This document shows positions 16,867 to 23,243 of a stretch of DNA of 45,165 nt, in pieces (position 1 is the stretch's first letter; each line of letters starts with the position of its first letter). A program made the translations under genes and the position numbers. The notes below the pieces were generated by a model. The model was given only the letters and a program-made list of their open reading frames with translations. It was not told the origin of the DNA and did no database searches. The DNA comes from an uncultured Erysipelotrichaceae bacterium (GTDB lineage Bacteria; Bacillota_I; Bacilli_A; Erysipelotrichales; Erysipelotrichaceae). The stretch lies in NCBI GenBank assembly GCA_902793635.1, contig CADBEA010000017.1, positions 1-45,165 on the forward strand. The letters run 5' to 3'.

Positions 16867-17121
16867 ATGGTTCATGAACTGACGAATGCCAGGATCAGAT
16901 ACCTGATTGCCTTATGGGAACTTGATCCGGAAGGAAGAGGGATCCGCAGTATTGCCCTGGCCAGAAAACTGAATGTTTCAAGGCCCAGTGTGCATGCCAT
17001 GATCGAGCGTCTGACAGACAGCGGTTTCGTGAACAAGGAACACTACGGCATCGTCTATCTTTCCGCAAAAGGTGTGAAAGCAGCTGAGCATTACCGAAGC
17101 CGCATGAACAGCGGAATCTGA
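16867..17121 (+). CDS. Short DtxR-like winged-helix protein without metal-binding domain
   Basis: 84 residues. It aligns by eye with the N-terminal DNA-binding domain of DtxR/MntR proteins: an initial helix (NARIRYLIALWELD), then SIALARKLNVSRPSVHAMIERLTDSGFV as the helix-turn-helix, then the wing (HYGIVYLSAKGVKAAEHY). It ends just where full-length members reach the HR.LE helix with metal ligands and the dimerisation domain, so it should not sense metal in the usual way. It lies 30 bp after feoB in the position of feoC, a similarly sized winged-helix gene elsewhere, but it lacks FeoC's Cys cluster. The ribosome binding site is weak. MarR-type is the alternative reading. Its own operon carries DtxR-like boxes upstream. 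Confidence 0.75.
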   Translation: MVHELTNARIRYLIALWELDPEGRGIRSIALARKLNVSRPSVHAMIERLTDSGFVNKEHYGIVYLSAKGVKAAEHYRSRMNSGI

Positions 17122-17256: not shown

Positions 17257-20200
17257 ATGAAATACAACGCCTTCATTTCCTACCGGCACACCGAGCGCGA
17301 CAGCGCTGTCGCCCATGAGATCCAGAAACGTCTGGAACGTTTTCGTATACCTTCCGCGATCCGTAAGCAGACCGGCATTGAACGCATTGACCGGCTCTTC
17401 CTTGATCAGGCGGAACTGGATATCGGCAGCGATCTGTCAGAAAAGATCGACGAAGCGCTGGCTGCTTCGGAATATCTGATCGTTATCTGTTCGCCGGCTT
17501 ACAATGAATCGAAATGGTGTCTTCATGAAATTGAAGAGTTTTTAAAGACGCATGACCGTTCGCATATCCTGACGGTGCTTTCGGAAGGGGAGCCGCCGGC
17601 GGTTTTCCCGGAACGTCTCTGCTCATACGAAGAAACGATCACCGCGGAAGACGGATCTGTGACAGTTGTCAGCCGGCCGTGTGAGCCGCTGGCCTGTGAC
17701 TACCGGCAACCGTTCAAGGAAGCGGATAAAACCGAACTGCCGCGTCTGGCAGCTGCCCTGATCGGCTGTTCGTATGATGAACTGATCATGCGGCGGGCTC
17801 AGTACAACCGGCAGAGGATGCTGATAATGACGAGTATTATCGCGGTACTCTCAGCCATCGCCATTTCCTATCTGCTGTATTCCAACGCGGTGATCCGCAG
17901 CCATTACCGACAGACACTGATCAAGGAATCCAATACACTCGCGGTACAGTCATTGCAGGCCTGTGAAAACAAAGACCGCATGCAGGCCCTGTCCTATGCA
18001 CTGGAAGCACTGCCTTCCGAAACACTGGATAGACCGATTACACCGGAGGCACTGTATGCCTTGCAGAGAGCGGCCGGTGTCTATGAACTGCCGGGAACGT
18101 TCCGTCAGACATACGTATATAAAGAATCCGCTGAGATCCTGGATATGGTCATCACTTCGGACGGCAGCCGGATGGCATATCTGGATGCGGCGATGAACAT
18201 TTCCGCCGTCGATCTGAAAACAAAAGAAAAGACTGCCGTATGGCATCTGGACGGAGATACAGCCAATGATCTGATGCTGGACAGCCAGGATCTGCTGTAT
18301 GTCTGCCATAACGGGGCCGTCAGCTGCTTTGATCTTGAAGGCAATCAGTTATGGCACACACCGCTGCAGTTTCAGATGCTGAACCGGATTCATATGTCAT
18401 ATGATCAGAACTTCATCGCGGCGGCCGATGCCTTCGCCGTGCAGGTCATGAGGCGGGATGATGGTTCCCCGTATGCCAGCTACCGTATTCCGGCCGAACT
18501 TAAGGGGCACATCAGGGATGTCTGCTGGGCTCCGGACGGAAGGACACTGGCTGTGATCTATCATGAAGAAAGCGGTCATGAACAGGTTGGTTTCTTTGAC
18601 GAGGAAAGCGGTCATTTCACACTGGATGAAACCGTTGTCAGTTCCGTCAGCGATATCTTCTTCCTGGATAATGAACATCTTCTGATCGTATCTCCCGTCA
18701 GTTCCGATACGACTTATTCCGAACTGGAACAGACACTTTATGCCTATGACAATACTTTGCAGCTGCGCTGTATCAGCACCGCTCTGGAAGAGATCTGGCG
18801 GAGTGAACTGCCGTATTCCCACCTCAGTCTGCCATTTCAGAAATTCATGACTTCCTTTGAGGATAAAAACGTTCTGGTATGTGCCGCGGAAGACCGTGTG
18901 ACGGTCATCAATCCCGAAAATGGCACTGTATTGTCGCAATACGATGCCGGCAGTGCTGTCGCGGCTGTCTATGAGCTGGATCCCGGACATGCCCGTCTGA
19001 TTACCGCGGCCGGCAATGACGTGACCGCCTGGCGGGAAAACGGCCAGAGCCTGATCCGCAGGACCTATCCTAAGAACATTACAAAAGCTCTGGCAGTATG
19101 GGACAGCGGTACAAACGGATACAGGATCTGCCTCATCAGCAGCGGTTCTCTTTCTGTTTTTGAAAATGCCTATGATACCTCTCTGCAGCTGAGTTCTGAA
19201 ACGCTGACGGCTTTTCCGGAGTCAGCTGTCTGTAACGATGACAGCATCACTGTCTGTGACGGCGCGAATCTGATTACATACCGGCTTAGCAGCCATGAAG
19301 TGATTTCCCGGACAGAACCGGAAGAAAAAAAGACCAGGATCCTGGCCGGCTATACCGCTGATCAGAATATTGTTTCTTATCTTCTGGATCCATCATCAGG
19401 AACGATTGAAGCGGAGATCACAGAACCCGAAAAGGGCAGTCTGATCCGCAGCTTTGCACTGCCGGTAAGAGATTACAATGCGGAAGCCGGCGTGCTTGCC
19501 GCATACGAAAGCATATACGGCGGGGAAGATCCTGCCGGTGCTGTCCGTCAGTTTCTGCAGATCGTCTATCACTGCAGTCCGCCGGCAATGCTCTATCACG
19601 ATCTGCTCTACAGCCATTCCTATACCGATCCGAATACGATTCATATCACTGACCTGGAAGGCACTGACCGTACCGTCACTGTGACACTGAACGGTCTGCT
19701 GCGAAACGGTGAGTACGATTTCGATCTTTCATTGCTGATACCGGATCCAAAAGGCGCATTTCTGTATACCGTCATGCGGGATGATCAGGGCGGTTACCGT
19801 GGTGTGATCGTCAGTACTGAGGACGGCCGCAGTATCACCCTTGAAGATACACTTGACGCCGCAGCACCTGCAGGCATCTGGAGTGAGGACGGATCCCGTC
19901 TGGCTGTCCTCTGCAGCAAAGCAGTGCAGATCTATGACGATGCCGGAAGTCTTCGACAAATGATTCCCTGTACGTCTTCACAGGCCCTCCAGGCAGCCTG
20001 GTACGGAACAAAGCTTCTGACTGTCACAGATGATCAGAAAGCATTGCTTTATGATGAAAGCGGCAATATCATCGCAGACTATGATCTGAGTTTTGAAAAC
20101 AGCAGTCTCTACAAAAACGGTTACCTGAAGATCAGTATCAGCGGTCCGGAAGCAATCATCACCGACGGTAATACTCTGCAGATCCTCGATCTTGAACAGG

Positions 20201-20373
20201 AAGGAACCCGGCCGGTGCTGTATGTGCCGCATAACGCCCTCGGTTATGCCGAAAAAACCGGCGAGATCATCGTCGCGGCTGATCTTTCGGGCAATGAAAA
20301 GTACTGCATCGGCTTCTTTGTCCGCCGCAGTACGAAGGAACTGATCCAGAGCGGCTATGAGCAGCTGAAATAG
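17257..20373 (+). CDS. TIR domain - membrane helix - beta-propeller-like extracytoplasmic domain protein
   Basis: 1038 residues. The N-terminal TIR domain (about 1-165) begins with the canonical FISYRH strand. It carries the putative NADase glutamate Glu91 in ESKWCLHEIEEF (the W-C-x-x-E element of active TIR NADases) and box-2-like FLDQAELDIGSDL. A single hydrophobic helix spans about 188-208. The Arg-rich RRAQYNRQR before it puts the TIR in the cytoplasm and the remaining 830 residues outside. After it comes SNTLAVQSLQACENKDRMQALSYALEAL, a helical segment also seen before WD40-like domains, then many repeats of the type S.DG..LAYLD...I...DL.T, which look like one or two beta-propellers. It is monocistronic, with no clear Shine-Dalgarno before the ATG and only weak promoter-like boxes. 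Whether it acts in defence, signalling or cell-envelope sensing is unknown. The domain calls are confident except the exact propeller type. Confidence 0.85.
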   Translation: MKYNAFISYRHTERDSAVAHEIQKRLERFRIPSAIRKQTGIERIDRLFLDQAELDIGSDLSEKIDEALAASEYLIVICSPAYNESKWCLHEIEEFLKTHDRSHILTVLSEGEPPAVFPERLCSYEETITAEDGSVTVVSRPCEPLACDYRQPFKEADKTELPRLAAALIGCSYDELIMRRAQYNRQRMLIMTSIIAVLSAIAISYLLYSNAVIRSHYRQTLIKESNTLAVQSLQACENKDRMQALSYALEALPSETLDRPITPEALYALQRAAGVYELPGTFRQTYVYKESAEILDMVITSDGSRMAYLDAAMNISAVDLKTKEKTAVWHLDGDTANDLMLDSQDLLYVCHNGAVSCFDLEGNQLWHTPLQFQMLNRIHMSYDQNFIAAADAFAVQVMRRDDGSPYASYRIPAELKGHIRDVCWAPDGRTLAVIYHEESGHEQVGFFDEESGHFTLDETVVSSVSDIFFLDNEHLLIVSPVSSDTTYSELEQTLYAYDNTLQLRCISTALEEIWRSELPYSHLSLPFQKFMTSFEDKNVLVCAAEDRVTVINPENGTVLSQYDAGSAVAAVYELDPGHARLITAAGNDVTAWRENGQSLIRRTYPKNITKALAVWDSGTNGYRICLISSGSLSVFENAYDTSLQLSSETLTAFPESAVCNDDSITVCDGANLITYRLSSHEVISRTEPEEKKTRILAGYTADQNIVSYLLDPSSGTIEAEITEPEKGSLIRSFALPVRDYNAEAGVLAAYESIYGGEDPAGAVRQFLQIVYHCSPPAMLYHDLLYSHSYTDPNTIHITDLEGTDRTVTVTLNGLLRNGEYDFDLSLLIPDPKGAFLYTVMRDDQGGYRGVIVSTEDGRSITLEDTLDAAAPAGIWSEDGSRLAVLCSKAVQIYDDAGSLRQMIPCTSSQALQAAWYGTKLLTVTDDQKALLYDESGNIIADYDLSFENSSLYKNGYLKISISGPEAIITDGNTLQILDLEQEGTRPVLYVPHNALGYAEKTGEIIVAADLSGNEKYCIGFFVRRSTKELIQSGYEQLK

Positions 20374-21756: not shown

Positions 21757-21842
21757 CATGTGTCCGCTTCTGTACAGGCAACCGTATGGCAGTTTTCTTT
21801 CTTTGGCTATAATGGAAAAAGAGACGGAGATCAGACATAGAT

Positions 21843-23243
21843 ATGCAAAAGAATACCGGATATTACATTATTTCTCCGAATTATGCCCTGCGGGGATGGG
21901 CTTTTCTGCCGTATGCGCTGCAGTCACTGCAGACAACAAAGACGTTTTTTTTCGGAAACCGGAATTTGAACTGCTAAAAAAGTGCGACGGCAATACGCAT
22001 ATCAGCCTGGAAGAACTCAGTGAAGAAGAGAAGGATCTTTTGGCCAGGTGGGAAAAGGATGGACTGATCTGGCCCTGCGAATGCGGGGAAAAACTGCTGA
22101 GCGATCAGGAATACCGTTTTTACAACAACGCCTTCAAGGAACATGTCCAGTGGTCGATCACCGGCAAATGCAATTTCCGCTGCCGTCACTGCTTTATGTC
22201 GGCACCGCACGCGGCGGAAGGGGAACCTTCTTTTGAACAGCTGATGGAAATGCTGGACGGCTTTGCGGCATGCGGCATCAAGGGCGTCAGCCTGACCGGC
22301 GGCGAACCGCTGATCAGACGGGATTTCTGGCAGGTCGTCGATGCCATTCTGGAACGCGGCATGATCATTCCCTATATCTATTCAAACGGCTTCCTGGTCA
22401 CTGATCAGTTCCTGGACGAACTGGAAAAAAGACGTATCCGGCCGATCATTCAGTTCAGTTTCGACGGTATCGGCTGGCATGACTGGATGCGCGGTATCGA
22501 CGGAGCCAAGCAGTTTGTCAGGGACGCTCTGAAGCGCTGCCGTGACAGACATTTTATGACGACATGTTCCATGGTGCTGTTCAGAAAATAAGGAAAGCAT
22601 CCGTGAATCAGTCAAACTGCTTGCCGAACTCGGCTGCAGTTCCGTGAAGATCGGCAATGCCATGCCGCAGGGTGAATGGCTGAATGAACCGGAACACTTC
22701 CTGAGTCAGAAAGAAGTCAACCAGGTTTTCCTGGACTATATCCCGCAGTATTTCGCTGACGGCGCACCGCTGAACATTTCACTGGAAGGCTTCTTCCGCT
22801 ATGACAAAAACAGCCGCAAGATCGGTGCTCTGTTTGAAAGAAATGTCGCCGAGGAAAACTTCTCCAAAGCGCCGATGTGTCTGCATGTCAGAAGAGATCT
22901 GTATGTCAGTCCGAAGGGCAGGGTTCTGCCCTGCATGTCGATGGTCGGAACACCGGCCGAGGAAAAGTTCCCGAACATGCTGGAAACACCGCTGTCGGAT
23001 ATTCTCAACCATCTGTCCGTCTATATGATTCTGAGTGACACCCGCATCAGTGAATTCATGCATCACAATCCGGAATGCCAGGCGTGCCGTTACCGAACAA
23101 ATTGCTGCGGCGGCTGCCGGGCCTGGGCTGTCCGTGACGGCAGCACCGATTATCTGGCCAGAGACATGGTGACCTGTGAGTACTACCTGGGCGGCTGGAA
23201 AGAAAAAAAGGAAGCGGTTCTGAAAGAACTCGGCCTCCTGTAG
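21843..23243 (+). pseudogene. Radical SAM/SPASM protein interrupted by two compensating frameshifts
   Basis: Joined, it would encode about 466 residues: an N-terminal segment (SPNYALRGWAFLPYAL, translated from ATG 21843), a radical SAM core with the 4Fe-4S motif CNFRCRHC and the SAM-binding GGEP, and a C-terminal SPASM domain (CLHV...LPCMSM...CQACRYRTNCCGGCRAW) for auxiliary clusters. Such enzymes often modify ribosomal peptides; no precursor is evident here. The start frame is lost at a run of eight T (21945-21952); the core continues in the -1 frame to a TAA at 22589 right after AAAA (22585-22588). Homology then resumes at NKESIRESVK in the original frame. One T missing and one A extra would restore a full gene. 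Sequencing error, mutation or slippage are all possible. TATAAT at 21808-21813 is a likely -10 box. Confidence 0.8.

Follow-up and report, generated by a model that had tools for sequence, protein, structure and literature searches.

The bacterial TIR proteins characterised so far are mostly soluble and detect infection from within the cell. Among the closest described systems, Thoeris couples a TIR protein with a catalytic glutamate (ThsB) to ThsA (SIR2-SLOG or Macro), and some Thoeris effectors are membrane-bound; animal Toll-like receptors span the membrane once, with a large N-terminal ectodomain of leucine-rich repeats (LRRs) and a C-terminal cytosolic TIR domain; and Apaf-1 and other WD40-bearing STAND proteins carry a helical stretch followed by two propellers. 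The gene described here lies in a 45,165-nucleotide stretch of contig CADBEA010000017.1 from an uncultured Erysipelotrichaceae bacterium, hereafter the window, and encodes a protein composed of a TIR domain, one membrane helix and two predicted beta-propellers. The preferred reading, which is given a probability of roughly 0.55, is that propellers outside the cell control a TIR-made ADP-ribose-type signal that, in relatives, is read by an effector with an RyR domain and cleared or processed by a DHH phosphoesterase; this design is favoured because RyR domains bind signals of the cyclic ADP-ribose (cADPR) type.

The gene is a single open reading frame (ORF) with an ATG start, and its features are as follows, with model confidence given as the predicted local distance difference test (pLDDT) and hydropathy on the Kyte-Doolittle (KD) scale.

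17257..20373 (+): TIR, membrane helix and double beta-propeller protein of 1038 amino acids, recognised from the ORF, Pfam, the structure model and relatives in other genomes.
17257..17706 (+): TIR domain, residues 1-150 (PF13676, E 1e-13; model pLDDT about 90; family mean pairwise identity 54.5%).
17527..17529 (+): codon of Glu91, the putative NADase catalytic glutamate, in W87-x-x-x-E91 (E in 65/65 and W in 65/65 full-length members).
17773..17967 (+): continuous helix 173-237, which includes the membrane segment and extends about 30 residues further (DSSP on the AlphaFold model).
17821..17877 (+): membrane-spanning segment, residues 189-207, preceded by RRAQYNRQR (KD 2.36; four Lys/Arg in the N flank, two in the C flank).
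18091..19173 (+): first beta-propeller, residues 279-639, eight blades (32 strands in the model; PDB matches with Z 24-28).
19186..20331 (+): second beta-propeller, residues 644-1025, with a strand count that fits seven or eight blades (31 strands in the model).

The original prediction, made from the sequence alone, had described a TIR domain with a W-C-x-x-E element, one membrane helix behind an arginine-rich stretch, and some 830 residues of propeller-like motifs, and all three were borne out. Besides PF13676, the models PF01582 (E 2e-10) and PF08937 (ThsB_TIR; 26.6 bits against a cut-off of 21.2) match the N-terminal domain above their cut-offs, so that three Pfam models and a confident structure model agree on the fold and sequence signature of an NADase-type TIR domain, and the family TIR profile matches solved TIR domains that include Roq1, AbTIR and Cat1. 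Glu91 sits in the sequence W87-C-L-H-E91, and the only strongly hydrophobic helix has its best 19-mer at residues 189-207. Pfam gives weak WD40/PQQ-type matches in the C-terminal part. An AlphaFold model of the full protein, built from an alignment of 65 full-length relatives (mean pLDDT 89; predicted template-modelling score 0.77) and superseding a model made without an alignment (pLDDT 37), runs from the TIR domain through helix 173-237 and short helices up to residue 273 into the two propellers. The first propeller aligns over its whole length with the eight-bladed designed protein Tako8 (Z 26) and also aligns with Fbw7, Cdc4 and BamB, and the PDB proteins that match the second, tandem-WD40 proteins and Apaf-1, do so only jointly with the first.

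Relatives were found by protein search in eight of 146 genomes of the bacterial family to which the window belongs, the window's genome included, and a wider scan, over 84,980 species genomes, gave at least 551 confirmed family loci. From these, 79 loci were kept for study, drawn from Erysipelotrichaceae, Lachnospiraceae, Oscillospiraceae and other Clostridia, mostly of rumen and gut; ORFs in the relatives were called simply as the longest available, which leaves some start codons uncertain and let in a few antisense ORFs. Four TIR residues, Ser8, Asp50, Trp87 and Glu91, are the same in all 65 full-length members, and loss of the active-site glutamate in close homologues had been named beforehand as a finding that would count against the idea. 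The invariance of Glu91 is a fair test because the patterns used for the family search (YxAFISYRH and the FRD region) lay elsewhere in the TIR domain. Mean pairwise identity falls from 54.5% in the TIR domain, where overall conservation was partly selected for by those patterns, through 43% for the helix to 17% for each propeller, a gradient that fits a fixed output domain joined to a varying sensor. No description of the family was found in the searched literature.

The same invariance bears on whether the TIR domain might be a scaffold without catalysis of its own that brings in another TIR protein, which is judged the least probable of the alternatives. The window's genome holds at least five other TIR genes, and its seven TIR matches include further TIR, membrane helix and propeller proteins, but a scaffold has no obvious need for Ser8, Asp50, Trp87 and Glu91 to be kept in every full-length member.

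The membrane topology was assessed from charge and composition. Across the family, the 15 residues before the membrane helix hold on average 5.8 Lys/Arg and the 15 after it 2.3, and the N flank is the richer in 72 of 74 proteins, which by the positive-inside rule describes a single-pass receptor with its N-terminus inside and its C-terminus outside. A composition classifier called 71 of the 74 C-terminal parts exported (0.67 for the window protein) and none of the 74 TIR domains; it had learned from proteins of the fetched loci, mostly on the same contigs, that were predicted to be exported or cytosolic, and reached a balanced accuracy of 0.93 with a small exported training set (24). The C-terminal parts hold 7.7% Lys plus Arg against 12.0% in cytosolic proteins (p 1e-29) and thereby resemble exported proteins, although a propeller fold by itself may lower the Lys/Arg content. 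Because the positive-inside bias and the classifier agree, the TIR domain is likely to lie inside and the propellers outside, on the strength of these sequence signals and as had originally been proposed.

It is quite unlikely that the helix instead anchors a fully cytosolic or peripheral protein whose propellers sense events inside the cell, in the manner of Apaf-1 and the WD40-containing STAND proteins. The tandem propellers behind a helical stretch do recall Apaf-1, and the median cysteine content of the C-terminal part (1.39%) exceeds that of exported proteins (0.88%); however, Pfam finds no NTPase domain, the one hydrophobic segment has a strong positive-inside bias, and the composition is of the exported type, with the reservation about the propeller fold given above. 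Cysteine content was dropped as a topology test, since in these anaerobes its range in exported proteins overlaps that in cytosolic ones and the family is intermediate in a larger set. The protein further differs from Apaf-1 and its kin in having a membrane helix and a TIR output.

Membrane proteins with an RyR domain neighbour the family gene in ten loci (L026, L029, L032, L037, L062, L089, L090, L091, L099 and L104), directly adjoining it in nine and standing about 2 kb off in L089, and L090 holds two adjoining copies. The partners have a Rossmann/TrkA-like core followed by a C-terminal RyR domain, with membrane helices where the gene is complete, and two of them, the L089 protein and the second L090 copy, are K+ channels by their pore domain (PF07885, E 5e-16 and 4e-13) and TVGYGD filter. 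All three bacterial families examined have RyR proteins adjoining family members. Two of the loci, L026 and L029, belong to the clade of the window protein (support 100/99), and in two genomes of the window's bacterial family (G023 and G099) the RyR protein lies directly downstream of the receptor. An operon in genome G234 (L205) reads Rossmann-RyR, K+ channel-RyR, TIR-propeller, and genome G564 has the same order by coordinates. In tests that ignore phylogeny, RyR proteins occur in 5/8 family-positive against 4/138 other genomes of Erysipelotrichaceae (p 1e-5), 16/39 against 40/260 of Lachnospiraceae (p 6e-4) and 5/11 against 22/189 of Oscillospiraceae (p 8e-3). Twenty RyR loci were also read, seven picked for a known TIR match and 13 picked blind; a TIR-type membrane protein stands in the same cluster in five of the blind-picked 13 (L200, L202, L203, L212 and L213, the last recognised by eye). 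Burroughs et al. reportedly placed RyR and TIR domains in nucleotide-centred systems (Nucleic Acids Research, 2015), and any novelty of the RyR-TIR link is provisional.

The phage protein RyDEP, which has the ryanodine-receptor R12 (RyR) domain, binds and cleaves 2'cADPR and 3'cADPR and holds its ligand with H75, W78, H100 and D117 (PMC13232231); an RyR domain is therefore the expected partner if the TIR domain makes such signals. The aligned partners keep H-x-x-W and the second His in 10/10 and the Asp at +17, the catalytic position, in 5/10; it is missing from L062, the first L090 copy, L104, L037 and L091, which may therefore bind without cleaving. Unlike RyDEP, the partners are membrane proteins, some of them K+ channels, and carry the RyR domain at the C-terminus.

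A second recurrent partner is a DHH-DHHA1 protein of about 500 amino acids that adjoins or lies near the family gene in 37 of the 79 loci, within 120 bp in 32 of them; L037 carries both this and an RyR partner. The DHH active-site motifs are invariant, and the gene takes one of three positions relative to the family gene: convergent or, on the same strand, either upstream or downstream. The convergent and the upstream arrangement each imply three to four changes on the tree, and the link has therefore been kept or re-formed through rearrangements. Among 299 Lachnospiraceae genomes, the family is present in 39, the DHH gene in 51 and both in 25; the DHH gene thus occurs in 25/39 family-positive but 26/260 family-negative genomes (Fisher 5e-13, uncorrected for phylogeny), and the two genes are adjacent in 21 of the 25, with DHH upstream on the same strand in 13. 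A role as a dedicated TIR partner was ruled out, as DHH-only genomes carry the gene in unrelated contexts. In one DHH partner (L058:11076-12554, minus strand), the C-terminal 190 or so residues (about 310-492, with a PGDY...DIYII motif) have no Pfam match.

The genome of the window (G000; 2.43 Mb in 79 contigs, 95% complete) resembles a metagenome-assembled genome. Upstream of the receptor gene are FeoB and, at 16867-17121, a short ORF that by eye looks winged-helix-like; downstream are proteins with a Dabb domain and with DUF4428, and a radical-SAM/SPASM pair. Pfam recognised no known defence partner among the nine window neighbours, in keeping with the earlier statement that no recognisable defence gene adjoins, and PADLOC gave only weak matches and no defined system. 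The radical-SAM (21758-22591) and SPASM (22644-23243) ORFs, both on the plus strand, are in different frames 52 bases apart and look like one frameshifted gene or an assembly error.

The paralogue L011:8195-11287 of the same genome is 51% identical to the window protein over the N-terminal 290 residues. Elsewhere in this genome, the overlapping genes L012:7285-9645 and L012:9524-11251 (contig C3) both have the look of TIR or TIR-like, membrane helix and propeller proteins, the former without the usual TIR motif at its N-terminus; L008:8853-10334 encodes a 493-amino-acid protein with TIR, membrane helix and short propeller, and L010:9198-13265 a 1355-amino-acid protein with TIR-like domains and TPR-like repeats (both read by eye). 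In other genomes of the bacterial family, further TIR-like proteins (L222:9176-12904, L224:6017-7069, L225:1-1113 and L221:489-3209) adjoin the receptor or the RyR protein and start with KVFIAYHGT... or AKVYFCCYPGDF..., and the L221 protein resembles the N-terminus of the 1355-amino-acid protein. In one clade, the window protein's close relatives have mutually related neighbours of about 400-470 amino acids on both sides (L027:6622-7986, L027:11362-12555 and in L028).

Several observations, in addition to the cysteine content, weigh against the preferred reading. Homologues of neither the DHH protein nor the RyR channel were found in the window's genome, though in a 79-contig assembly absence is not proof; the window copy therefore looks orphaned. 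The receptor is absent from all five sampled genomes of the window's genus. Some DHH genes stand in unrelated contexts that lack TIR, and the co-occurrence tests for both partners ignore phylogeny. The PF02026 scores of the RyR partners lie under the curated cut-off, the best reaching 26.6 against 27.4 bits (L032) and the others 10.7-18.1 bits or having none listed.

The orphan locus bears on a stand-alone abortive NADase, in which a trigger such as phage adsorption would cause the TIR domain to deplete NAD+ with no messenger or reader. This alternative is considered unlikely. It would suit a locus with no partner in the genome and no adjoining defence gene, and abortive-infection TIR NADases are known in bacteria, SpbK being one (PMC12847820). 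Against it, nucleotide-handling partners recur in relatives, and the several family copies found in some genomes fit signalling better than suicide. The recurrent RyR and DHH linkage points to a nucleotide-signalling pathway rather than to a stand-alone NADase only. The suggestion of a stand-alone response in the original prediction is thus not general, relatives being repeatedly linked to RyR channels and the DHH phosphoesterase; the window copy itself looks like an orphan in its genome.

Under the preferred reading of a receptor that signals through an ADP-ribose-type nucleotide, the protein would be a type II membrane receptor whose two extracellular propellers sense a ligand or surface event, and the long helix would relay this through the membrane, probably as subunits cluster or rotate. 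In the cytosol, the TIR domain would then cleave NAD+ at Glu91 to ADP-ribose or a cADPR isomer. In relatives, the adjoining RyR-domain membrane protein, sometimes a K+ channel, may read the signal and alter ion flux, and the adjoining DHH phosphoesterase may remove or process it; in the window's genome, the receptor might lower NAD or rely on a reader that is encoded elsewhere or escaped recognition. Of these elements, the architecture, the kept glutamate, the topology signals and the gene linkages come from computation, whereas NADase activity, signal identity, ligand sensing, channel gating and the part played by DHH are inferred. Phage defence, competitor sensing and sensing of host material are candidate purposes. 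It is a more tentative proposal, and on balance doubtful, that all parts form one complete trans-membrane pathway, with a double-propeller receptor, a TIR-made cADPR-type messenger, an RyR-gated K+ channel as effector and a DHH off-switch.

The family shares with Thoeris a TIR domain with a catalytic glutamate and, in relatives, a TIR gene that adjoins a gene for a putative nucleotide-binding effector, these partners being membrane proteins, as some Thoeris effectors are. Here, however, the TIR protein is a predicted membrane receptor with propellers, and the partners carry RyR or DHH-DHHA1 domains. No ThsB model is among those that PADLOC lists for the window protein, no SIR2-SLOG or Macro ThsA was seen among the genes examined, and by Pfam none of the nine window neighbours is ThsA. 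Because no ThsA adjoins, the family is not a member of Thoeris; it would work like a Thoeris TIR turned into a membrane receptor. The likeness to Toll-like receptors lies in the single span, the cytosolic TIR domain and the large predicted ectodomain, whereas here the TIR domain is N-terminal, the ectodomain is a double propeller and the NADase glutamate is kept. The label of an inverted Toll receptor is thus apt for the domain order, which is reversed (TIR 1-150, propellers 279-1025), but not beyond it, as the protein lacks LRRs and no line of descent from Toll receptors is shown.

If the preferred reading is true, this widespread and outward-looking TIR family would provide gut and rumen Firmicutes with a receptor of Toll-like logic. 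The linkage to RyR channels opens a direct test of whether cADPR-type nucleotides gate RyR-domain channels, a matter long disputed in animals. Were the full pathway also to prove true, it would in its logic be a Toll-like receptor joined to the cADPR-RyR channel route.
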